NCBI GenBank assembly: GCA_022841665.1
Contig: JALHRB010000020.1
Location: 1-53,898 of the forward strand
Direction: 5' to 3'
DNA length: 53,898 nucleotides
From: Pseudolabrys sp.
GTDB lineage: Bacteria > Pseudomonadota > Alphaproteobacteria > Rhizobiales > Xanthobacteraceae
A program made the translations under genes and the position numbers. Numbering within the stretch: position 1 is the stretch's first letter; every line of letters starts with the position of its first letter. Under the pieces are notes generated by a model, which saw only the letters and a program-made list of their open reading frames with translations, was not told where the DNA came from and made no database searches. Of the stretch, positions 8,644 to 46,633 are shown piece after piece.

Positions 8644-9390
8644 TCAGTTGCCGGTCTGGACGATCGCGCCGGACGGACCGCCCGGATAGTCCAATCGGTA
8701 TCGTAAATAGTGCTTGGTCCGCGACGGCGTCATCGGCGGCGTGTGACAGCCGTCGTATGCATAGCGATAACCCCACTTCGCCGTGGTGTTCGCCTTGATC
8801 TGCGCGCGAATGGCCGCCCGCTGAGCCGCGGTCGTGAACGGAAATCCGGCGCTCCATCCGGGAATCGGACGCGAGCCCGGCGGCAACGGCAGGATCGCGG
8901 TCTCGACTGATACTTTGACGTCGTAGCGCGATTTCAGGCACTCGACGGTGATATGATGATCGCGCGATGGCCCGCCCGGCACATTGTCGAAGTATTCGAG
9001 AATTTCCGTCGTGAAAGGTTCGACGATATCGCACCGTTCGTTTGCCGGATTATATTTCCATCGCTTGCCGTTCACCGTCACGATTTGCACCGCGACGTCG
9101 CCGGCGGGAATCCCCACTTTGCCCTTCTCGTGAATATCGGTGTAGAGCACCAGCCCGCTGACATGCCCGTTGTTGGGCGGCGCGCCGCACTTCGGCGGAA
9201 TGCTGTTGAGGATGTGATTGCGTGCAGCAGCAGGCAACGAAGCCGGCAACGGAACAGTACCGGCGACCGCGTCCGTGTAGAACGCAGGCGGCGCACCCAA
9301 TGAAACTTGTGCATCGATCGCGACAGCGATCTGCGGCGCGAGAAAAATCCCGGCAACCGACACGATCGGAACCAGAAACTTTTTCATCAT
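8644..9390 (-). CDS. Secreted protein of unknown function
   Basis: 248 residues (247 if the second ATG at 9387 is used). There is a clear signal peptide (KKFLVPIVSVAGIFLAPQIAVA, cleavage about residue 24). The mature protein has four Cys residues, within PPKCGAPPNNGH, NERCDIVEP, VECLKSRYD and YDGCHTPPM, which could form two disulfides. Segments such as VAVQIVTVNGKRWKYNP and DVKVSVETAILPLPPG suggest a compact beta-rich fold. It probably starts the operon with the downstream lipoprotein gene. No ribosome-binding site stands out. Function unknown; secretion to the periplasm or outside is supported. Confidence 0.72.
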   Translation of the reverse strand: MMKKFLVPIVSVAGIFLAPQIAVAIDAQVSLGAPPAFYTDAVAGTVPLPASLPAAARNHILNSIPPKCGAPPNNGHVSGLVLYTDIHEKGKVGIPAGDVAVQIVTVNGKRWKYNPANERCDIVEPFTTEILEYFDNVPGGPSRDHHITVECLKSRYDVKVSVETAILPLPPGSRPIPGWSAGFPFTTAAQRAAIRAQIKANTTAKWGYRYAYDGCHTPPMTPSRTKHYLRYRLDYPGGPSGAIVQTGN

Positions 9391-9530
9391 TGTCGATCCG
9401 CGCGCAACGAACGAAAATTTGTTCGCGGGCCTGGATGCTGCGGTCAGAACAATTTGCCGATGCTAGAAAGATATATGAAAGCCGCCGCTGCGCAATCTGG
9501 TCGCGAAGTCAGACCATCACCGCGCAGCAG

Positions 9531-9557
9531 AAAAATGGCCGGGACAATGCCCGGCCA
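9531..9557 (-). terminator. Rho-independent terminator after dksA
   Basis: On the minus strand an 8-bp perfect stem TGGCCGGG / CCCGGCCA (9550-9557 and 9536-9543) with a 6-base loop is followed by a run of five T. It lies 35 bp past the dksA stop. Confidence 0.8.
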
Positions 9558-9591
9558 TAACTAATCGTTATGTACGCATAACGTTACGCTC

Positions 9592-10005
9592 TCAGTCGTC
9601 GCGGTAGACGCGCTCTCTTCGCTCGTGGCGCTCCTGCGCCTCCACCGACAAGGTGGCGATGGGCCGCGCTTCCAGGCGGCGCAGCGAGATCGGCTCGCCG
9701 GTTTCCTCGCAATAGCCGTAGGTGCCGTCGTCGATGCGGGCGAGCGCCTCGTCGATCTTGGCGATCAGCTTGCGCTGGCGGTCGCGCGCGCGCAGCTCGA
9801 TGGCGCGGTCGGTTTCCGAGGAGGCCCGGTCGGCGAGATCGGGATGGTTCTGGTTCTCCTCCTGCAGGTGCTGCAGCGTCTCCTTGGCCTCTTTCAGAAT
9901 ATCTTCCCGCCATGCGAGCAGCTTGGCGCGAAAATATTCGCGCTGGCGCTCGTTCATGAACGGCTCCTTATCGGACGGCCGGTAGCTTTTGGTCTTGGCC
10001 AACAT
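9592..10005 (-). CDS. dksA: DksA-family RNA polymerase-binding transcription factor, zinc ligands lost
   Basis: 137 residues from the ATG at 10005, which has GGGAG nine bases upstream; an in-frame GTG at 10014 overlaps that site. DksA inserts into the secondary channel of RNA polymerase and works with ppGpp. The coiled-coil tip residues are kept (D56, D59 and A61 in DLADRA), as is DDGTYGYC. Of the four zinc-finger Cys only the first remains (C99); the others are T102, S120 and A123. Reduced-Cys DksA proteins are known from alphaproteobacteria. It is commonly found beside flagellar genes in this group. Confidence 0.93.
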   Translation of the reverse strand: MLAKTKSYRPSDKEPFMNERQREYFRAKLLAWREDILKEAKETLQHLQEENQNHPDLADRASSETDRAIELRARDRQRKLIAKIDEALARIDDGTYGYCEETGEPISLRRLEARPIATLSVEAQERHERRERVYRDD

Positions 10006-10187
10006 CCCACCCACTCCCTGTCTTCTTATCGTTGTTGTCGAAGAAGCACCCTCCCACGATGCGGGAGGCTTATATACGCGCGCCGGACGCCGGACAACAA
10101 CGACGTAGCGCGCCGGGAATAGCCAGATTTGTGTGACGGTCCAATGACTTGGGCAGGCCGAAGGAACCCAACCGGCGCGCTTTCGCG

Positions 10188-10598
10188 CTAGCGGACGCCG
10201 GCTTTGGCCAGTTCGACCGCGACGCGCAGGTCGATTTCGCCCATGACGCGGTCGAGGCCGGCGTCGCCCGATTCGTCGGTCAGGCCTTCGGCCGCCACCT
10301 TGAGCCGGGCGAGCGTGGACTGGTCGAGCCCGCCATCGAGCAACCCGAGCTTGAGCTTGTCCAGCACGTCCAGGGCGTTACGGCCCTTGGCCACCGCCCG
10401 CTTGCGGCGCTCGGTCGGGTCTTCCACGCCCTGCAAGGCGATCAGCGCGTCGAGGGTGGAGATCGCCCGCAGCGAGCCGGCCGCCGCCGACTGGCGCGGC
10501 GTCTCCTGTTCGCTGACGCTGAAGCTGCCGCCCGTCGCGCGGCGGGCGGGCGCGGGCGTCGCGGCCAGCGCAGTCCCGTTCGGTCCGTAAATCCGCAT
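10188..10598 (-). CDS. fliX: Flagellar assembly regulator FliX
   Basis: 136 residues, starting MRIYGPNGTALAA, a typical FliX opening. A low-complexity Ala/Arg stretch follows, then a helical domain (STLDALIALQGVEDPTERRK, ALDVLDKLKLGLLDG). In Caulobacter, FliX couples early flagellar assembly to activation of the sigma54 activator FlbD. This matches the sigma54-like boxes found upstream of flgF, flgI and flgE here; flbD itself is not in the window. fliX is transcribed divergently from flgI, and a CtrA-like site lies in the shared upstream region. Confidence 0.9.
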   Translation of the reverse strand: MRIYGPNGTALAATPAPARRATGGSFSVSEQETPRQSAAAGSLRAISTLDALIALQGVEDPTERRKRAVAKGRNALDVLDKLKLGLLDGGLDQSTLARLKVAAEGLTDESGDAGLDRVMGEIDLRVAVELAKAGVR

Positions 10599-10660
10599 CG
10601 GTCAGATCCCCAGCCCGGAAATGGTCGGTCCCCCGTGGGTTCCACCCTGCCGGCTTATGG

Positions 10661-10675
10661 TTAACCCGCGGTAAA
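10661..10675. promoter_or_regulatory. Possible CtrA site between fliX and flgI
   Basis: TTAA-CCCGCGG-TAAA: correct 7-base spacing with the second half-site one base off. It lies 63 bp upstream of the fliX start. fliX is CtrA-controlled in Caulobacter, which makes this plausible, but the match is imperfect. Confidence 0.35.
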
Positions 10676-10791
10676 TGCTGGGCAAAAATTACCGGGTGGC
10701 GGCTGTTGCTGCCGGGTGAAGAGCCGCCGCGCCCTGCCCCGCGCTGCTAATTTCAGATGAAATATCAAAAGGTTGCCCTTTCAGACCGGCT

Positions 10792-10806
10792 TGGCACGAC
10801 GTTCGC
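10792..10806 (+). promoter_or_regulatory. Sigma54-type promoter upstream of flgI
   Basis: TGGCAC-GACGT-TCGC: invariant GG and GC correctly spaced, one mismatch in the -12 element. The expected transcript start would lie about 30 bp before the flgI ATG at 10847. Confidence 0.7.
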
Positions 10807-10846
10807 ATTCTTCATGGCCGGTCATACGTCACATTGGGGAGCAGTG

Positions 10847-11959
10847 ATGACGAGGACATTGCGGGCCGCCTGCTGGGCGGTGTTTCTGGTCATGTGCGTC
10901 CCGGTTAGCGCCGGGGCGACCTCGCGCATCAAGGACCTCGCCAATATCGAAGGCGTGCGCCAGAACCAGCTTATCGGCTACGGCCTGGTCGTCGGCCTCA
11001 ACGGCTCGGGCGACACCCTCACCAACATCCCGTTCACCCGGCAGTCGCTGCAGGCGATGCTCGAGCGCCTCGGCGTCAATATCCGCGGCCAGACTTTGCG
11101 CACCGGTAACGTCGCCGCCGTGATGGTCACCGCCAACCTGCCCCCCTTCGCCACCCAGGGCACGCGCATCGACGTCACCGTTTCGGCGCTCGGCGACGCC
11201 AAGAGCCTGCAAGGCGGCACGCTGCTGGTCACGCCGCTGCTCGGCGCCGACGGCAACGTCTATGCGGTCGGCCAGGGCTCGGTCGCGATCGGCGGCTTCC
11301 AGGCCGAAGGCGAGGCCGCCAAGATCGTGCGCGGCGTGCCGACCGTCGGCCGCATCGCCAACGGCGCGCTGATCGAGCGCGAGATCGAGTTCAACCTCAA
11401 TCGCCAGAGCCAGCTGCGCATGGCGCTGCGCAATCCCGACTTCACCACCGCCAAGCGCATTGCCGCCGCCATCAACGACTATATCGGCGTGCCGACCGCG
11501 GAATCGCTCGATCCCGGCACCGTCGGGATCACGGTGCCGCAGCAGTACCGCGGCAACGTCATCAAGCTCCTGACCGAGGTCGAGCAGCTTCAGGTCGAGC
11601 CGGACCTGTCCGCCAAGATCGTCATCGACGAGCGCTCGGGCATCATCGTGATGGGCCGCGACGTGCGCGTGTCCATGGTCGCGGTGGCGCAGGGCAACCT
11701 CACCGTCACCATCACCGAGACGCCGCAGGTGAGCCAGCCGACGCCGTTCTCGCGCACGGGCACGACGCAAGTCGTCAACCGCACGCGCATTGGCGTGCAG
11801 GAGGACGGCAAGAAGCTCGCGGTCGTGAAAGACGGCGTGTCGCTGCAACAGCTCGTCGACGGGCTCAACTCGCTCGGCATCGGCCCGCGCGACCTGATCG
11901 CCATCCTGCAGGCGATCAAGGCCGCCGGCGCGATCCAAGCCGATATCGAGGTGATGTGA
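10847..11959 (+). CDS. flgI: Flagellar P-ring protein FlgI
   Basis: 370 residues from the ATG at 10847 (GGGGAG eight bases upstream), with a signal peptide ending near VSAGA. The mature start SRIKDLANIEGVRQNQLIGY is the FlgI hallmark, and the body continues with GLVVGLNGSGD, a GTRIDVTVSALGDAKSL-type strand and the C-terminal VKDGVSLQQLVDGLNSLG. It forms the periplasmic P ring around the rod. The longer frame from 10757 reads through the promoter. Its stop overlaps the next start (TGATG), indicating coupling with the rod-binding gene. Confidence 0.96.
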   Translation: MTRTLRAACWAVFLVMCVPVSAGATSRIKDLANIEGVRQNQLIGYGLVVGLNGSGDTLTNIPFTRQSLQAMLERLGVNIRGQTLRTGNVAAVMVTANLPPFATQGTRIDVTVSALGDAKSLQGGTLLVTPLLGADGNVYAVGQGSVAIGGFQAEGEAAKIVRGVPTVGRIANGALIEREIEFNLNRQSQLRMALRNPDFTTAKRIAAAINDYIGVPTAESLDPGTVGITVPQQYRGNVIKLLTEVEQLQVEPDLSAKIVIDERSGIIVMGRDVRVSMVAVAQGNLTVTITETPQVSQPTPFSRTGTTQVVNRTRIGVQEDGKKLAVVKDGVSLQQLVDGLNSLGIGPRDLIAILQAIKAAGAIQADIEVM

Positions 11960-39382: not shown

Positions 39383-40555
39383 CTACCTCACCAACTCCCG
39401 CATCGCCCGATCCAGCCCCTCCAGCGTCAGCGGATACATGCGCCCGCCCATGAGCCGATGCACGAGCTGGATGGAATGGGTGTAGCCCCATTCCTTCTCC
39501 GGCACCGGGTTGAGCCAGACGCAGGCCGGATAGGTGCGCGTCACGCGCTCGAGCCAGGCGGCGCCCGCCTCGTCGTTGTAATGCTCGACCGAGCCGCCGA
39601 CCGCCGCGATCTCGTAAGGCGACATCGAGGCGTCGCCGACGAAGATCACCTTGTAGTCGTGCGGATACGTGTGCAGCAGGTCCCAGGTCGGCGTCGTCTC
39701 CTGGAAGCGGCGGCGGTTCTCCTTCCACACTTTCTCGTACAGGCAATTGTGGAAGTAGAAATGCGCCATGTGCTTGAACTCGGAGCGCGCCGCCGAGAAC
39801 AATTCCTCGATCGCCTTGATGTGCCAGTCCATCGAGCCGCCGATGTCGAAGAACAGCAGCACCTTCACGGCGTTGTGCCGCTCCGGCCGCATGTGGATGT
39901 CGAGATAGCCCTTGTGCGCGGTGCCCTTGATGGTGCCGTCGAGGTCGAGCTCCTCGGCCGAACCGGTGCGCGCGAACTTGCGCAGCCGGCGCAGCGCCAC
40001 CTTGATGTTGCGGGTGCCTAGCTCGACGTCGTCGTCGAGGTCCTTGAACTCGCGCTTATCCCACACCTTCACGGCGCGGCGGTGCGTGCTCTCGCCGCCG
40101 ATGCGGATGCCTTCCGGGTTGTAGCCGGCGTTACCAAAGGGAGACGTGCCGCCGGTGCCGATCCATTTCGAGCCGCCCTGGTGGCGGCCCTTCTGCTCGG
40201 CCAGGCGCTTCTTCAGCGTCTCCAGCAGCTTGTCGAGCCCGCCCAGCGCCTCGATCTGCTTCTTCTCTTCCTCGGTGAGATATTTGTCGGCCAGCTTCTT
40301 GAGCCATTCGGTCGGGATCTCGGCCTCGGCCGCATCGCTCATCAGTTCGAGGCCCTTGAACACGTGGCCGAACACGCGGTCGAACTTGTCGAGGTTGCGC
40401 TCATCCTTCACCAGCGCGGCGCGCGACAGATAGTAGAAATCCTCCACCCGGCGCCCCGCGAGGTCGGCCTCCATGGCCTCCATCAGCGTGAGGTATTCGC
40501 GCAAGGTCACCGGCACGCCGGCGCTTTTGAGTTCCTGGAAGAAGGTGACGAACAT
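39383..40555 (-). CDS. CoxE-type VWA-domain protein
   Basis: 390 residues from the ATG at 40555. The N-terminal half is helical (FFQELKSAGVPVTLREYLTL). The C-terminal VWA domain has VKVLLFFDIGGSMDWHIKAI near residue 235; its MIDAS is D-x-G-x-S rather than the usual D-x-S-x-S, as in CoxE-type proteins. VWA proteins of this type work with MoxR ATPases; the likely partner is at 25528-26373. In carboxydotrophs CoxD and CoxE mature the molybdenum CO dehydrogenase, and a molybdenum hydroxylase lies 3.2 kb away here. An upstream frame to 40786 reads through a repeat and is not coding. Confidence 0.9.
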   Translation of the reverse strand: MFVTFFQELKSAGVPVTLREYLTLMEAMEADLAGRRVEDFYYLSRAALVKDERNLDKFDRVFGHVFKGLELMSDAAEAEIPTEWLKKLADKYLTEEEKKQIEALGGLDKLLETLKKRLAEQKGRHQGGSKWIGTGGTSPFGNAGYNPEGIRIGGESTHRRAVKVWDKREFKDLDDDVELGTRNIKVALRRLRKFARTGSAEELDLDGTIKGTAHKGYLDIHMRPERHNAVKVLLFFDIGGSMDWHIKAIEELFSAARSEFKHMAHFYFHNCLYEKVWKENRRRFQETTPTWDLLHTYPHDYKVIFVGDASMSPYEIAAVGGSVEHYNDEAGAAWLERVTRTYPACVWLNPVPEKEWGYTHSIQLVHRLMGGRMYPLTLEGLDRAMRELVR

Positions 40556-40634
40556 GCGGCCTCTTTTCCCGGGCGCGGCGCAGCGTGCAGCCATAAGCGC
40601 GATTACGCGCGCCTTCGACGCGCTATGGCGAAAC

Positions 40635-40701
40635 GGTGCGCCGCAGACCCGGGATCTTCCCAAATTCCGAACTTTTGGCGGTCCCGGATCAGCGGCGCAC
40701 C
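40635..40701. repeat. Intergenic inverted repeat
   Basis: Arms of 22 bp at 40635-40656 and 40680-40701 (GGTGCGCCGC... and ...GCGGCGCACC) match at 19 positions around a 23-base AT-richer centre. A further GCACCGCATCCGGGAC follows to about 40730. This is a second dispersed repeat type, different from that at 38748. Confidence 0.7.
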
Positions 40702-40826
40702 GCTTCGCGCTGCACCGCATCCGGGACAAGCCACGAGAATTCGCTCTGGCGCCGGCCGCGTCAAGCCGGGTACAAATACACCCCAAGAACGATAAAAGCG
40801 GACTGCCGGGGGATTACGCTGTGGGA

Positions 40827-42188
40827 ATGCGCGACCGCGCCCTGTGGGCGCTGGCTGTCGTCGTGTCGCTGGCGCTGCTGACAGCGCCGGCGCTCTGGAA
40901 CGGGTTCCCGCTCTTGCAGTGGGACACCGGCGGCTATCTCGCCCGCACCTATGAAGGCATCCTGGTGCCGAGCCGCGCCGTCATCTACGGCCTCATTTTG
41001 CGCGCCGGCGTGCCCTTCGCCTTCTGGCCGGTGTTGCTGCTGCAGGCGGCGCTGACGATCTGGGTCGTCGCCCTGACGCTGCGCGTGCACGGCTTCGGCC
41101 GCCGGCCGCTGCTCCTGCTCGGCGTCATCGCGGCGCTCTCGATCCTCACCACGCTGCCGTGGCTCACCGCCATCCTGCTCACCGACATCTTCTGCGGCCT
41201 TTCCGTGCTGGCGCTTTACATGCTCTTGATGCGCGCCGACGCGCTGACGCGGCCCGAGCGCATCGCGCTCGTCATCCTCATCGCCGTCAGCGCCGCTACG
41301 CACAACGCCACCCTCGCCGTGCTGCTCGCGCTCACCGCGGCGGGCGCCTTCGTCCGCCTCCTCGACCGCGAACGCATGCCGCGCGTGCGGCTCGTCAACG
41401 CGGTGGTTGCGCTCGCGCTCGGCGCGCTGACGGTGTTCGTCACCAATTACGCGGTCGCCAAAAAGCTCGCGTGGACGCCGGGCGGCTTTTCCATCGCCTT
41501 CGGCCGCATGCTGCAGGACGGCATCGTCCACAAATATCTCGACGCCCACTGTCCCGACCCGCATCTGCGCCTCTGCGCCGTGAAGGACCGCATCCCGCAG
41601 GATGCCGACACCTGGTTCTGGGGCAGCGACCTGTTCGACTCGATGGGACGCTTTGCCGGGCTCGGCAAGGAGATGGAGATCATCGCGCTCAATGCGATCG
41701 TCGAATACCCCACTTTGCAGCTCAAGACGGCCGCGATCGCCACCGCGCGGCAGCTCGTCAAAGTGCGCACCGGCGAAGGCGTGCTGGACGACCTCTGGCA
41801 CACCCGCATCATCATCGAGCAGTTCACGCCGGCGCTGGCGCCGGCGATGAAAGCCGCGCGCCAGCAGGCGCAGGGCATCGATTTTACGCCCGTCAACGCG
41901 CTGCATTATCCGCTGGCGCTCATCGGCATGGCGCTGCTGCCGCTGATCGCCTGGCTCGCCTTCCGCCGCCGGCTGCCGAAGGAACTGGGCGAACTGGCCG
42001 CCGTCTGCATGCTGGCGCTCTTGGCCAACGCCTTCGTCTGCGGCGCCTTGTCCAACCCGCACGACCGCTATGGCGCCCGCATGATCTGGCTCGCCGGATT
42101 TGCCGTGGCGCTCGCGCTTGTGCGCGTGCTGGACGAGCGCCGCGCGCTTGCCCGCGGCGTTTCGCCCGCCCCGGCCCCATTGAACTAA
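40827..42188 (+). CDS. Polytopic membrane protein of unknown family (DTGGYL protein 1)
   Basis: 453 residues with about ten membrane helices and no cleavable signal. A conserved loop after the first helix reads PALWNGFPLLQWDTGGYLAR (Asp at residue 33). Next come the motif VPFAFWPVLLLQAALT and a large extracytoplasmic segment with TPGGFSIAFGRMLQDGIV and CPDPHLRLC. It is a tandem paralogue of the next gene. An acidic residue in the first periplasmic loop of a many-helix protein recalls GT-C glycosyltransferases, but I see no diagnostic match, so function is unknown. The ATG is preceded by GGGGGA 11 bases upstream; a GTG at 40821 is also possible. Confidence 0.82.
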   Translation: MRDRALWALAVVVSLALLTAPALWNGFPLLQWDTGGYLARTYEGILVPSRAVIYGLILRAGVPFAFWPVLLLQAALTIWVVALTLRVHGFGRRPLLLLGVIAALSILTTLPWLTAILLTDIFCGLSVLALYMLLMRADALTRPERIALVILIAVSAATHNATLAVLLALTAAGAFVRLLDRERMPRVRLVNAVVALALGALTVFVTNYAVAKKLAWTPGGFSIAFGRMLQDGIVHKYLDAHCPDPHLRLCAVKDRIPQDADTWFWGSDLFDSMGRFAGLGKEMEIIALNAIVEYPTLQLKTAAIATARQLVKVRTGEGVLDDLWHTRIIIEQFTPALAPAMKAARQQAQGIDFTPVNALHYPLALIGMALLPLIAWLAFRRRLPKELGELAAVCMLALLANAFVCGALSNPHDRYGARMIWLAGFAVALALVRVLDERRALARGVSPAPAPLN

Positions 42189-42277
42189 ATCAAGGCGGCC
42201 GCGTTCCCTTCGCGCTAACCGTAACTGGGCGCGGAAATTGCTGCCATCGGCAAGCAGTTTCGCGAAGGGGCTGGTGG

Positions 42278-43669
42278 ATGGCCGAAACCGTCGTTGCCCG
42301 CAGCACGCCCGTTGCGCCTGAAATCACTGCGCCCACTCAGACTTGGCAATGGTTATTGGCCTTTGCCGGCATGGTGCTGGTGCTGAGCGCCCCTGCCCTG
42401 TGGAACGGCTTCCCGCTCATCTTTCCCGACACCGGCGGCTATCTCACGCGCCCGATTTTGCGCGAGCTCGGCATGGGCCGCTCGGCTTTCTACGGTTGGC
42501 TGCTCTACATAAGCGTGCCTTTCGCCTTCTGGCCGGTGGTGCTGGCGCAGGCGGCGCTGACCGCCTGGGTCGTCGTGCTCACCTTGCGCGCGCTGTCGCT
42601 CGGCGGCAGGCCGTGGCTTGCTTTGGCCGCCGTGCTGCTGCTCGCGCTCGGCACCGGTCTCGCCTGGTCGGCCGCCTATTTGATACCCGACATCTTCTTC
42701 CCGCTTGCGGTGCTGGCGCTCTATTTGCTGGCCTTCAGGCTCGACAGCCTTGCGACATGGGAGCGCATCGGCCTCGTGGCCGTCATCGCCGTGGCCATCG
42801 CCAGTCACATGGCCGCGCTCGGGCTTTGCGTCGCGCTCGTGGCCGTGCTGTGGCTCGCCGCGCGCGTGACGCGCCTGCCGCGGCCACGGTTGCGCTACAC
42901 CGTCGCCGCGGCGGCCGCCGGCGTCGCGCTCGCGCTTTTGTCCAATTTCGCCATCGCGCACAGCTTCCGCTTCACGCCCGGCGGCGCCAACTTCCTGTTC
43001 GGCCGGCTGGTCGAGGACGGCATCGTCGCCCGCTACCTGGACGACCGCTGCCCCGACCCAGCCTTGCGCATTTGCGCTTATGTCCGCGACATTCCCGACC
43101 ATGCCGACGACTGGCTGTGGGGCCCGGACACGGCCTTCTACAAGCTCGGCGGGCACGCGGGATTCGGCGGCGAGGCGCGCGAGATCATCGTCGAAACGCT
43201 GAAGCGCTATCCGCTCGCTCATGTCGCCGCCGCGCTTAAGGCGACCGCGGTGCAGTTCGTCACCTTCGCGACCGAGGTCAGCTCGGTGGACAATCACCCC
43301 GCCGTCGGCACCCTAGCCGAATACACGCCGCAACTTCTGGCGCGGGTGATGGCCGCGCGCCAGCAGCAGGGCTACTTCGACGCCTTCCCGCTCAATGTCG
43401 TGCATATCCCGGTCGCCGCCCTCGGCATCGCCGGGATCGCGGCCGCTTTCGCCTTCCGACGCCGCCTGGCGCTGCCGCCGGAGGCCGCCGCGCTCTGCCT
43501 CACCGTCTTGCTGGCGCTCGCCGTCAACGCCGCGATCTGCGGCGTCTTCTCCCACCCGGTCGACCGCTACCAGAGCCGGCTGGTGCTGCTGGCTCCCTTC
43601 GCACTGGCCCTGCTTCTGGTCCGCCGGAACCTGGCAGACCCGCTTGGGCGCTCCGCAGATTTAGCCTAG
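42278..43669 (+). CDS. Polytopic membrane protein of unknown family (DTGGYL protein 2)
   Basis: 463 residues, paralogous along its full length to the preceding gene. Shared blocks are PALWNGFPL, DTGGYL (Asp51), VPFAFWPVxLxQAALT, TPGGxxxxFGRxxxDGIV, CPDPxLRxC and DRYxxRxxxL near the C-terminus. It has about ten membrane helices and a hydrophilic N-terminal extension of 25 residues. The 89-bp gap to the first copy holds no terminator, so they are probably one transcript. Function unknown. Confidence 0.82.
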   Translation: MAETVVARSTPVAPEITAPTQTWQWLLAFAGMVLVLSAPALWNGFPLIFPDTGGYLTRPILRELGMGRSAFYGWLLYISVPFAFWPVVLAQAALTAWVVVLTLRALSLGGRPWLALAAVLLLALGTGLAWSAAYLIPDIFFPLAVLALYLLAFRLDSLATWERIGLVAVIAVAIASHMAALGLCVALVAVLWLAARVTRLPRPRLRYTVAAAAAGVALALLSNFAIAHSFRFTPGGANFLFGRLVEDGIVARYLDDRCPDPALRICAYVRDIPDHADDWLWGPDTAFYKLGGHAGFGGEAREIIVETLKRYPLAHVAAALKATAVQFVTFATEVSSVDNHPAVGTLAEYTPQLLARVMAARQQQGYFDAFPLNVVHIPVAALGIAGIAAAFAFRRRLALPPEAAALCLTVLLALAVNAAICGVFSHPVDRYQSRLVLLAPFALALLLVRRNLADPLGRSADLA

Positions 43670-43796: not shown

Positions 43797-44264
43797 ATGG
43801 CCAAAAAATCACTCACCGTGAACGGTAAACGCGTGTCGGTCAGCTACGACGATCCGCAGATGCCGCTACTCTATGTGCTGCGCGACAACCTCGACCTGCA
43901 CGGCCCGCGCTTCGGCTGCGGGCTCGGCCAGTGCGGCGCCTGTACGGTCCATATCGACGGCGCCGCCGTACGTTCCTGCGTCACGCCGCTGTCGGCCGTG
44001 AGCAGCAAACAGAAAGTCGTGACCCTGGAAGGTCTCGGCACAGCGCAGAAGCCGCATCCGGTGCAGAAGGCGTTCATCGACGAGCAAGCCGTGCAGTGCG
44101 GCTACTGCATCAACGGCATGATCATGCAATCGGCCGCCTTCCTGGCCAAGAACAAGAAGCCAAGCGAGGCCGAGATCAAGGCTGCGCTCGCCAACAATCT
44201 CTGCCGCTGCGGCACGCATGCCCGCATCGTGCGCGCCGTCAAGCGCGCTTCGGCTCAGGCTTAG
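43797..44264 (+). CDS. 2Fe-2S subunit of a molybdenum hydroxylase (IorA/aldehyde dehydrogenase small subunit type)
   Basis: 155 residues with two [2Fe-2S] clusters. The plant-type cluster uses C41, C46, C49 and C61 (FGCGLGQCGACTVHIDG), and the second uses C101, C104, C136 and C138 (QCGYCINGM and LCRCGTH). This is the xanthine oxidase family small subunit. It passes electrons from the molybdenum subunit encoded 10 bp downstream. No FAD-binding middle subunit is present, as in isoquinoline 1-oxidoreductase-type enzymes. Confidence 0.95.
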   Translation: MAKKSLTVNGKRVSVSYDDPQMPLLYVLRDNLDLHGPRFGCGLGQCGACTVHIDGAAVRSCVTPLSAVSSKQKVVTLEGLGTAQKPHPVQKAFIDEQAVQCGYCINGMIMQSAAFLAKNKKPSEAEIKAALANNLCRCGTHARIVRAVKRASAQA

Positions 44265-44274
44265 GGAGGCGACC

Positions 44275-46476
44275 ATGAACATTCAGATCTCGCGGCGTCA
44301 GGCCCTGCTCGGCTCCGGCGCCCTCGTCGTCAGCTTCTCGCTAGTTCGTCCGCTCGGCGATGCGCTGGCGCAAAGCCAGGCTAAGCCGCTCGCGTTGACC
44401 GAAGTCGACTCCTTCCTCGCCATCGACAAGGCCGGCAAGGTCACGGTCTATTCGGGCAAGGTCGATCTCGGCACCGGCGTCACCACGGCGCTTCGCCAGA
44501 TCGTGGCGGAAGAGCTCGACGTGCCGATGGCCCGCATCGAGCTGATCCAGGGCGACACCTTGCTCACGCCCGACCAGGGCAACACCTGGGGCAGCCTCAC
44601 CATTCAGCTTGGCGGCATGCAGTTGCGGCAAGCCTCGGCCGCCGCGCGCCAGGCGCTGCTGGCGGAAGCCGCCAAGAAGCTCGGCACCGACCAGCTCACG
44701 GTTGCCGACGGCGTCATTTCCGGCGGCGGCAAGAAGGTCAGCTACGCCGAATTGATCGGCGGCAAGAGCTTCTCGATCAAACTCGACCCGAAGCAGCCGG
44801 TGAAGGAGAAAGCGCCGAAGGACTACAAGATCGTCGGCAAGTCGCAGCCGCGGGTCGACATCCCCGGCAAAGTCACCGGCAGCTTCGTTTATATGCAGGA
44901 CTTCAAGGTGCCGGGCATGCTGCACGGCCGCGTCGTGCGGCCGCCGGCGATCGGCGCCAAGCTCGAAAGCGTCGACGACGCCGCGCTCAAGAAAATCCCC
45001 GGCGTCAAGGTCGTGCGCGAGGGCAACTTTCTTGCCGTGGTGGCCTCCAGCGAGTGGGACGCCATCCGCGGCGCCAATGCGCTCAAGGCCACCTGGTCGA
45101 AATCGGAAACGCTGCCCGATCAGGCCAAGCTGTGGGAGCACGTGCGCGCCACCAAGGTCGCCAAGGAGGACGTCACCGGCAATACCGGCAACACCGCCGA
45201 GGCCATGGCGAAAGACGGGGCCAAGACCATCAAGGCGACCTACGACTTCGCCATCCACATGCACGGCTCGATCGGGCCTTCCTGCGCCATCGCCGAGTTC
45301 AAGGACGGCATGCTGACCTCCTGGTCGGCCTCGCAGGCCACCCACAATCTGCGCAAGCAGCTCGCGCAGATGTTCTCGCTGCCCCCGGAAAAGGTGCGCT
45401 GCATCTATTTCGAAGGGGCCGGCTGCTACGGCCGCAACGGTCACGAGGACGCCGCCGCCGACGCCGCTCTGCTCGCCAAGGCGGTCGGCAAGCCGGTGCG
45501 CGTGCAATGGTCGCGCGCCGACGAGCACGGCTGGGAACCGAAAGGCCCGCCGACCCTGATGGACATGCGCGCCAGCATGGACGCTCAGGGCAACGTGACG
45601 GCATGGGAAGGCGACTTCTTCATGCCGCAGCAGACGCCGGCCGGCTTCCTGGTGCCGCTGGTGGCGGCTTCGCTCGCGGGCATGCCGTATGCCGATCACA
45701 TCGCGCCCGGCAACGTGTTCCAGAACTCGGCGATCCAGTACAAATTCCCCAACATCAAGACCGTGTGCAAGCGGCTGGAGACGACGCCGTTCCGCCCATC
45801 CTGGATCAGGACGCCTGGGCGCATGCAGAACACCTACGCCAACGAGTGCTTCGTCGACGAGCTGGCCGCCGCGGCCAACATGGACCCGATTGAGTTCCGG
45901 CGGAAATATCTCGACGACAAGCGCGGCCTCGAACTGCTCGACCGCCTGGCGGCGCTCGCCAAGTGGGAAAAGCGGCCGTCGCCGCAAAAGGCGGCGAGCG
46001 GCAATGTCGTGAAGGGGCGCGGCGTTTCCTACGTGAAATATGAGTTGGTGCGCACCTATGTCGGCGTAGTGGCGGAGGTGGAGGTCGACCGCACCACCGG
46101 CGTCATCCTCGTGCCGAAGTTCTACGTCGCCCACGACTGCGGCCAGATCGTCAACCCCGATGGCCTGAAGAACCAGATCGACGGCAATGTGATCCAGACC
46201 GTCAGCCGCACTCTGTACGAGGAAGTGAAGTTCGACCGTTCGCGGGTGACCAGCCTCGACTGGGAGGGCTATCCGATCCTCAAATTCCCGCAGGCGCCGG
46301 ACGTCGTCATCGACCTGATCGACCGTCCGAACGAGAAACCGTGGGGCGCCGGCGAACCGGCCGCCGCGGTCATCCCGTCGGCGATCTCCAACGCGGTGTT
46401 CGACGCCACCGGCGTGCGCTTGCGCTCGGTGCCCTACACGCCGGCCAAGGTGAAGGCGGCGATGCAGTCGACCTGA
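44275..46476 (+). CDS. Molybdopterin-binding subunit of a molybdenum hydroxylase (IorB type)
   Basis: 733 residues from the ATG at 44275 (AGGGAGG upstream). A Tat signal with SRRQALLGSGALVVSFSL near the N-terminus shows export of the folded, cofactor-loaded complex with the small subunit. Molybdopterin-contact segments include LGGMQLRQASAAARQALLAE and RTPGRMQNTYANECFVDELA, and the active-site Glu lies in GAGEPAAAV near residue 690. The substrate (an aldehyde or N-heterocycle) cannot be told. The expected cytochrome c partner is not in the window. A strong terminator follows. Confidence 0.93.
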   Translation: MNIQISRRQALLGSGALVVSFSLVRPLGDALAQSQAKPLALTEVDSFLAIDKAGKVTVYSGKVDLGTGVTTALRQIVAEELDVPMARIELIQGDTLLTPDQGNTWGSLTIQLGGMQLRQASAAARQALLAEAAKKLGTDQLTVADGVISGGGKKVSYAELIGGKSFSIKLDPKQPVKEKAPKDYKIVGKSQPRVDIPGKVTGSFVYMQDFKVPGMLHGRVVRPPAIGAKLESVDDAALKKIPGVKVVREGNFLAVVASSEWDAIRGANALKATWSKSETLPDQAKLWEHVRATKVAKEDVTGNTGNTAEAMAKDGAKTIKATYDFAIHMHGSIGPSCAIAEFKDGMLTSWSASQATHNLRKQLAQMFSLPPEKVRCIYFEGAGCYGRNGHEDAAADAALLAKAVGKPVRVQWSRADEHGWEPKGPPTLMDMRASMDAQGNVTAWEGDFFMPQQTPAGFLVPLVAASLAGMPYADHIAPGNVFQNSAIQYKFPNIKTVCKRLETTPFRPSWIRTPGRMQNTYANECFVDELAAAANMDPIEFRRKYLDDKRGLELLDRLAALAKWEKRPSPQKAASGNVVKGRGVSYVKYELVRTYVGVVAEVEVDRTTGVILVPKFYVAHDCGQIVNPDGLKNQIDGNVIQTVSRTLYEEVKFDRSRVTSLDWEGYPILKFPQAPDVVIDLIDRPNEKPWGAGEPAAAVIPSAISNAVFDATGVRLRSVPYTPAKVKAAMQST

Positions 46477-46527: not shown

Positions 46528-46633
46528 CCGCCGGGCGGGGTGGACGCCGCCGCCCAGGATGAATCCCGTGCGCCGCCGTGGTATCGGAAGGCGGGCGGCG
46601 GAATGCCGCCCCGTCCTTGAGGAGTGCCCGCCG

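Follow-up and report, generated by a model that had tools for sequence, protein, structure and literature searches.

The window, by which we mean the whole analysed stretch of 53,898 nucleotides of a Pseudolabrys genome, carries two neighbouring genes on the plus strand, here called A and B (Table 1). The sequence-only reading had described them as a tandem pair of membrane proteins of about 460 residues. This description was borne out: both open reading frames were found at the expected positions, and the two proteins share 44% identity over 415 aligned columns (E = 3e-84). The five motifs that had been proposed for the pair, PALWNGFPL, DTGGYL, VPFAFWPV, TPGG...FGR...DGIV and CPDPxLRxC, are all present in A and in B. 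A search of the 125 contigs of the window's genome (95% complete) returned A and B as the sole two matches and no third copy. Downstream of B (43797-46476) lie genes for a 2Fe-2S protein and for the molybdopterin-binding subunit of an enzyme resembling xanthine dehydrogenase; next comes the gene of a solute-binding protein at 46559.

Table 1. Location of the gene pair, its candidate functional residues and the helices of protein B. Helices were taken from the AlphaFold2 model.
Feature	Window position	Strand	Residues	Remark
VWA/CoxE-like gene	39386-40786	-		upstream of A; just over the Pfam cut-off
Gene A	40827-42188	+	453 aa	ten predicted membrane helices (our own assignment)
A Asp33 codon	40923-40925	+	33	follows helix 1, candidate for catalysis; Tyr37 lies four positions further
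Gap between A and B	42189-42277	+		89 bases
Gene B	42278-43669	+	463 aa	ATG at 42278; tandem paralogue of A
B Asp51 codon	42428-42430	+	51	candidate for catalysis, directly ahead of helix 52-61
B Asp138 codon	42689-42691	+	138	second invariant Asp; start of helix 4
B Cys258 to Cys266 (CPDPALRIC)	43049-43075	+	258-266	invariant Cys pair, probably a disulfide, within the large external segment
B Arg430-Tyr431	43565-43570	+	430-431	last external loop
B helix 1			19-43	D51 after it
B short helices			52-61 and 70-78	between helices 1 and 2
B helix 2			85-105	
B helix 3			112-125 and 128-133	two parts
B helix 4			137-153	D138 at its start
B helix 5			160-176	H177 follows
B helix 6			178-197	
B helix 7			205-227	
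B large segment			228-369	between helices 7 and 8; holds C258, C266 and W281
B helix 8			370-392	
B helix 9			401-424	R430-Y431 after it
B helix 10			438-452	

Distribution, pairing and genomic neighbourhood

Profile searches detected the family in 150 of 296 genomes of a Xanthobacteraceae sample, covering 33 of 47 genera. In Bradyrhizobium, matches were found in 108 of 117 genomes, six of which contained fragments only (G1406, G1417, G1420, G1426, G1427, G1468). Since nine of the 117 genomes had no match and six held the gene only in pieces, the gene is dispensable in this genus. With B as the query, 32 of 60 genomes of near relatives matched; these were 32 of the 36 Pseudolabrys genomes, including the window's own, and none of the 24 others. 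The same query matched 21 of 397 genomes in a sample of the order, again with its own genome included, namely 14 of Bradyrhizobium and six of other families. Profiles matched 29 of 385 genomes and 18 of 277 genera in a sample of the class, with distant members in other alphaproteobacteria. A phylum sample gave matches in 17 of 398 genomes, and outside the class there was one marginal partial match (E = 7.7e-4). Plasmid records searched with A gave no match at E 1e-5. A scan of the named genomes confirmed 344 stretches, the best 79 loci of which were taken for analysis. These came mainly from Pseudolabrys and other Hyphomicrobiales metagenome-assembled genomes (MAGs), Bradyrhizobium, Rhodopseudomonas, Nitrobacter and Pseudorhodoplanes, with Niveispirillum and Azospirillum contributing more distant members.

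The pairing of A and B was counted in 36 Pseudolabrys genomes, many of them fragmented drafts, with the copies told apart by bit score. Both genes were located close together on one contig in 22 genomes, six of which contained a third, B-like copy (G002, G012, G013, G014, G023, G030). Three genomes had A and B on separate contigs (G001, G016, G021) and one had a whole A together with a fragment of B at a contig end (G005). Among the draft assemblies, A occurred without B in three (G015, G019, G024) and B without A in three (G006 with two copies of B, G007, G034), and neither gene was found in four genomes (G003, G020, G022, G025). The A gene of G018 and the B gene of G034 were split. Pairing of the paralogues, for which the sequence-only reading had proposed a survey, is frequent in the genus but not universal. 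As in the six Bradyrhizobium genomes named above, the family matches only piecewise at G018:C209 2793-4098 and G034:C186 18159-19464. Some of the piecewise copies contain stops or frame breaks, due either to decay or to assembly error.

A tree of 91 rows was calculated by a quick method with SH-aLRT support only and carried a long-branch warning among the distant rows. In this tree A clusters with the sequences from Bradyrhizobium, Nitrobacter and Rhodopseudomonas, which occur there as single copies (36 rows, support 100). B belongs to a clade of 24 rows composed of Pseudolabrys, related MAG sequences and one Variibacter sequence (support 94). B has the appearance of a duplicated A that may have become specialised for another acceptor or linkage. 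The family pairs of genomes G1113 and G784 are sisters in the tree (support 100 and 99), and consequently their duplications were separate events. Repeated tandem duplication suggests a diversification of acceptor or linkage. Sister family pairs from separate duplications lie at L188 (7489-10370) and L184 (7573-12699), in two genomes of the class other than the window's.

Genomic neighbourhoods were compared for the 79 named loci and the window, and many of these 80 ended at contig edges. The recurring neighbours, each named from one representative, were a VWA/CoxE-like protein (31), a serine acetyltransferase (28) and an alpha/beta hydrolase (22). No glycan gene was found in ten representatives of the recurring neighbours in Pseudolabrys and Bradyrhizobium. 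A few distant loci showed a different picture. At L184 a family member, a GT2 glycosyltransferase, a GtrA protein and a second family member are encoded in this order on the same strand, separated by 18, 3 and 12 bases; behind the second family member lies a polysaccharide deacetylase/GH18/GT2 protein. At L195 a GT2 gene is found about 2.4 kb from the family member, and at L176 the family member adjoins a GH5 cellulase, with a GT2 gene about 3 kb off. The remaining distant loci (20 neighbourhoods in all), judged by eye, had mostly housekeeping surroundings. Using three query proteins, phmmer detected GT2-like proteins in three of 100 neighbourhoods (L101, L184, L195) and GtrA in L184 only, so that GT2 plus GtrA beside the family was found in one of 100. 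The scan has low sensitivity, as the GT2 gene of L176, which Pfam found, escaped it. Beside one distant family member, at L187, a 538-residue protein is encoded on the minus strand (9263-10876) which had no Pfam match at E 0.001.

Sequence searches and conserved residues

Searches of Pfam, NCBIfam and the PDB sequences with A and B gave nothing over the cut-off, and the same was true for distant members and family alignments. The earlier statement that no known family is evident therefore holds for these sequence libraries. Weak rows, among them SLATT_4, Wzy_C, FUSC-like, CPP1-like and glutathione transferase, remained below the cut-off and fit chance. When 79 members were compared singly with Pfam, no family exceeded the cut-off, and PMT_2 was absent among the best 25 of 35 weak families. 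In other Pfam searches at E up to 10, no row of PMT_2/GT83 (PF13231) appeared. Among titles and the opening parts of abstracts no paper naming the family was found. In literature searches with four motif strings, only DTGGY occurred among the matches listed, in papers unrelated by title.

A profile-profile comparison was performed with locally built alignments of PMT_2, GT87 and the MFS. The family scored 33.1 against the PMT_2 profile (P 0.0042), compared with 19.7 when the profile was reversed and 17.9 against MFS, in a test of low power. In the same test, GT87 and MFS, which have unrelated folds, scored 27.1, while PMT_2 and GT87, both GT-C, reached only 22.3. Because the unrelated pair outscored the related one, the comparison with PMT_2 has little power.

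Conservation was determined from 185 distinct sequences (matches of at least 370 residues), of which 62 were kept at less than 62% pairwise identity; numbering follows B, whose D51 and R430 correspond to D33 and R414 of A. P46, D51, D138, C258, C266 and R430 are present in all 62 members, H177, G248, W281, N417, Y431 and R434 in 61, and G44, R68 and P312 in 60. D51, D138, C258 and C266 are unchanged in all 185 unfiltered rows. In the most distant row (L051), the first Cys appears as V in one alignment and as C in two others. An alignment of 79 rows spanning both clades showed D51, D138, H177 and R68 to be invariant and Y55, R430 and Y431 to be nearly so.

The motifs had been described as strict, and this applies to only part of them. 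The Asp of DTGGYL, both Cys residues of CPDPxLRxC and the last Pro of PALWNGFPL occur in 62 of 62 members. Within DTGGYL the counts are D 62, T 52, G 50, G 40 and Y 57, position 54 being Gly in 40, Ala in 11 and Asp in five members. PALWNGFPL keeps mainly its N (59 members), its G (60) and its final P (62), and TPGG falls below the 85% threshold for listing across the 62 members. Several of the strictest positions lie outside the motifs first listed, namely D138 and R430 (62), H177, W281, Y431 and R434 (61) and R68 (60).

Predicted structure and comparison with GT-C enzymes

AlphaFold2 models were calculated from 79 aligned sequences, the two of the window and 77 of the family. The latter remained from 106 sequences of the named loci after three short ones had been removed and an 85% identity filter had been applied. 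The models reached a pLDDT of 94.0 for B and 95.9 for A, with a pTM of 0.93 in both cases. Which helices span the membrane is our own assignment from the secondary structure of the models. GT-C_A enzymes are described as having an N-terminal module of TM1-7 in which TM1 and TM2 are separated by two juxtamembrane helices, TM3 is broken by a kink and the first juxtamembrane helix bears an essential Asp at its tip (PMC12041299). According to the DSSP strings, both models show this seven-helix module together with the juxtamembrane pair that separates helices 1 and 2, and D51 is located at the corresponding place, immediately before helix 52-61.

The loops placed in the cytoplasm contain on average 2.3-2.8 Arg and Lys residues each, four flanking residues per side counted. 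The large external segment has on average 13.3 basic and 16.4 acidic residues, outer loops being counted without flanks. These values agree with an N-in topology in which D51, D138, H177, C258, C266, R430 and Y431 would lie outside. Secondary structure together with the charges of the loops hints that the Cys pair and the conserved Asp both face the extracytoplasmic side. C258 and C266 probably form a disulfide within a putative cap.

The models were compared with the PDB using Foldseek at E up to 10. Among the best 50 of 174 rows for B, a probability of at least 0.5 was obtained in 25 rows, every one of them a GT-C enzyme. They include ArnT (0.99), PglB (1.00), AglB, Pmt1-Pmt2, Pmt4, OST/STT3, ALG3 and DPY19. 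The translocon-assembly chains 8b6l_I, 9n9j_I and 6ftg_5 among the counted rows are presumably STT3A. The highest rows below this probability were WaaL (0.18), a GT-C_B enzyme, and a pyrophosphatase (0.13). For A, 27 rows among the best 50 of 177 had a probability of at least 0.5, again all GT-C, and the highest other row was CLC7 (0.23). These matches have no E-value below 0.001, query-normalised TM-scores of 0.27-0.46 in the counted rows and rmsd values of mostly 13-20 Å over full-length alignments. No transporter or channel exceeded a probability of 0.23 among the best 50 rows per model, which argues against the transport family that the sequence-only reading had offered as one option. The likeness to GT-C glycosyltransferases, which it had drawn from an Asp in the first external loop and the many helices, gains support from the predicted structure, the helix order, the place where the conserved Asp sits and the remaining invariant residues.

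With ArnT, PglB/AglB/STT3 and PMT the family has in common the predicted fold, the order of helices, the Asp after helix 1, the split helix 3 and probably an active site on the outside. It differs from these GT-C_A enzymes by the lack of a sequence match, ten helices by our assignment, the invariant Cys pair between helices 7 and 8 and the strictly kept RYxxR of the final external loop.

A further likeness concerns GT136, which was compared by the published description of ORF12, its motifs and domains. According to that report (PMC11127046), ORF12 is a pentofuranosyltransferase of Citrobacter youngae with the motifs D31-x3-Y35 and R349-Y350. The variants D31A, E34A, H106A and R349A were inactive, Y350A retained trace activity, Y35A was strongly reduced, and H174A and E176A equalled the wild type (PMC11127046). 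In the ORF12 model Y350 and H106 contact the donor phosphate and Y35, H174 and R349 the sugar, with D31 as the base (PMC11127046). The family has the corresponding pairs D51-x3-Y55 after helix 1 and R430-Y431. In contrast, the essential E34 is without counterpart, position 54 being mostly Gly or Ala. ORF12 counts 11 helices. It also bears a C-terminal beta-rich domain, which is absent from the models of A and B and was reported to be unnecessary for catalysis (PMC11127046). Candidates for the role of H106 in the family may be D138 or H177.

Proposed function and candidate acceptors

A and B most probably represent an undescribed family of periplasmic glycosyltransferases of the GT-C_A fold which use polyprenyl-phosphate sugar donors. 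The fold itself is well supported by prediction. The data establish the homology of A and B, how far the family extends, which residues are conserved, and confident models whose top-scoring solved structures are GT-C enzymes. From these we infer the activity, the type of donor, the topology, the disulfide, the part played by each residue and an acceptor among the envelope glycolipids or glycans. Both would be proteins of the inner membrane whose active site faces the periplasm. D51, in front of the first juxtamembrane helix, would be the catalytic residue and activate the acceptor. R430-Y431, R434, R68, H177 and D138 may line a pocket for the phosphate and the sugar of the donor, with R430, Y431, R434 and R68 holding the polyprenyl-phosphate sugar. 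Attack of the acceptor on the donor sugar would then release polyprenyl phosphate. The stretch that links helices 7 and 8 might act as a cap, braced by the probable C258-C266 disulfide, and help to bind the acceptor. If active, the A/B family would found a new glycosyltransferase family, and the analysis suggests a putative function for a gene that Pfam and NCBIfam leave blank.

It appears unlikely that A and B belong to a named GT-C family, GT83/PMT_2 or GT136, beyond the reach of the sequence libraries. The D-x3-Y and RY pairs are those of ORF12, and a low-scoring collinear alignment with PMT_2 sets D51 opposite an Asp conserved in 29 of 29 PMT_2 rows and the RY pair opposite the RY of one PMT_2 row. 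Against such membership stand the single searches with 79 members, none of which brought a Pfam family over the cut-off or PMT_2 among the best 25 of 35, and the missing C-terminal domain of ORF12. A transporter or flippase of lipid-linked sugars is a far more remote prospect. The proteins are polytopic with invariant charged residues, and polysaccharide genes lie near the family in a few distant loci (L176, L184), but the cassette of L184 has its own GtrA, the profile comparison revealed no MFS similarity and no transporter or channel passed a Foldseek probability of 0.23 among the best 50 rows per model.

We also regard it as rather improbable that the GT-C fold is present without sugar transfer, in a lipid-binding or scaffold protein or with B as a non-catalytic heterodimer partner of A. 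B is mostly found with A, in tandem in 22 of the 36 Pseudolabrys genomes and on separate contigs in three more, close pairs arose independently in G1113 and G784, and in Pmt1-Pmt2 two paralogues form a GT-C complex. However, D51, D138, H177 and R68 are invariant in the 79-row alignment that spans both clades, with Y55, R430 and Y431 nearly so. Moreover, three of the 36 genomes have A without B and three B without A, draft assemblies allowing. In Bradyrhizobium A needs no B, since genomes with a full-length match carry one each.

A concrete candidate role for A lies in the envelope sugars. The lipid A of Bradyrhizobium carries an alpha-mannose disaccharide at its distal end (PMC6102379, PMC7663294) and that of Rhodomicrobium one alpha-mannose at C-4' (PMC7795004). 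In the available parts of these papers genes are named for galacturonate transfer and none for mannose (PMC6102379, PMC7663294, PMC7795004). Speculatively, and with a low chance of being correct, A might place the 4' alpha-mannose on the lipid A of Bradyrhizobium and its relatives, and B might add a second or different sugar in Pseudolabrys. As a candidate lipid A mannose transferase, A is proposed from its presence and enzyme class. If this were true, a new CAZy family would fill a known structural gap. Loss of the gene in some Bradyrhizobium means that either those strains have no lipid A mannose or the mannose proposal is wrong, and the lineages with a lost or broken gene provide a natural comparison.

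The distant family pair of L184, which flanks GT2 and GtrA genes, resembles the three-component Gtr systems (GtrA, GtrB and a GT-C enzyme), unlike the pair in the window, beside which no GT2 or GtrA genes were found. Elsewhere, the window's genome contains two GtrA genes, five PMT_2 matches (four over the cut-off) and two GT87 genes. Consequently, other parts of such pathways are present in the cell.
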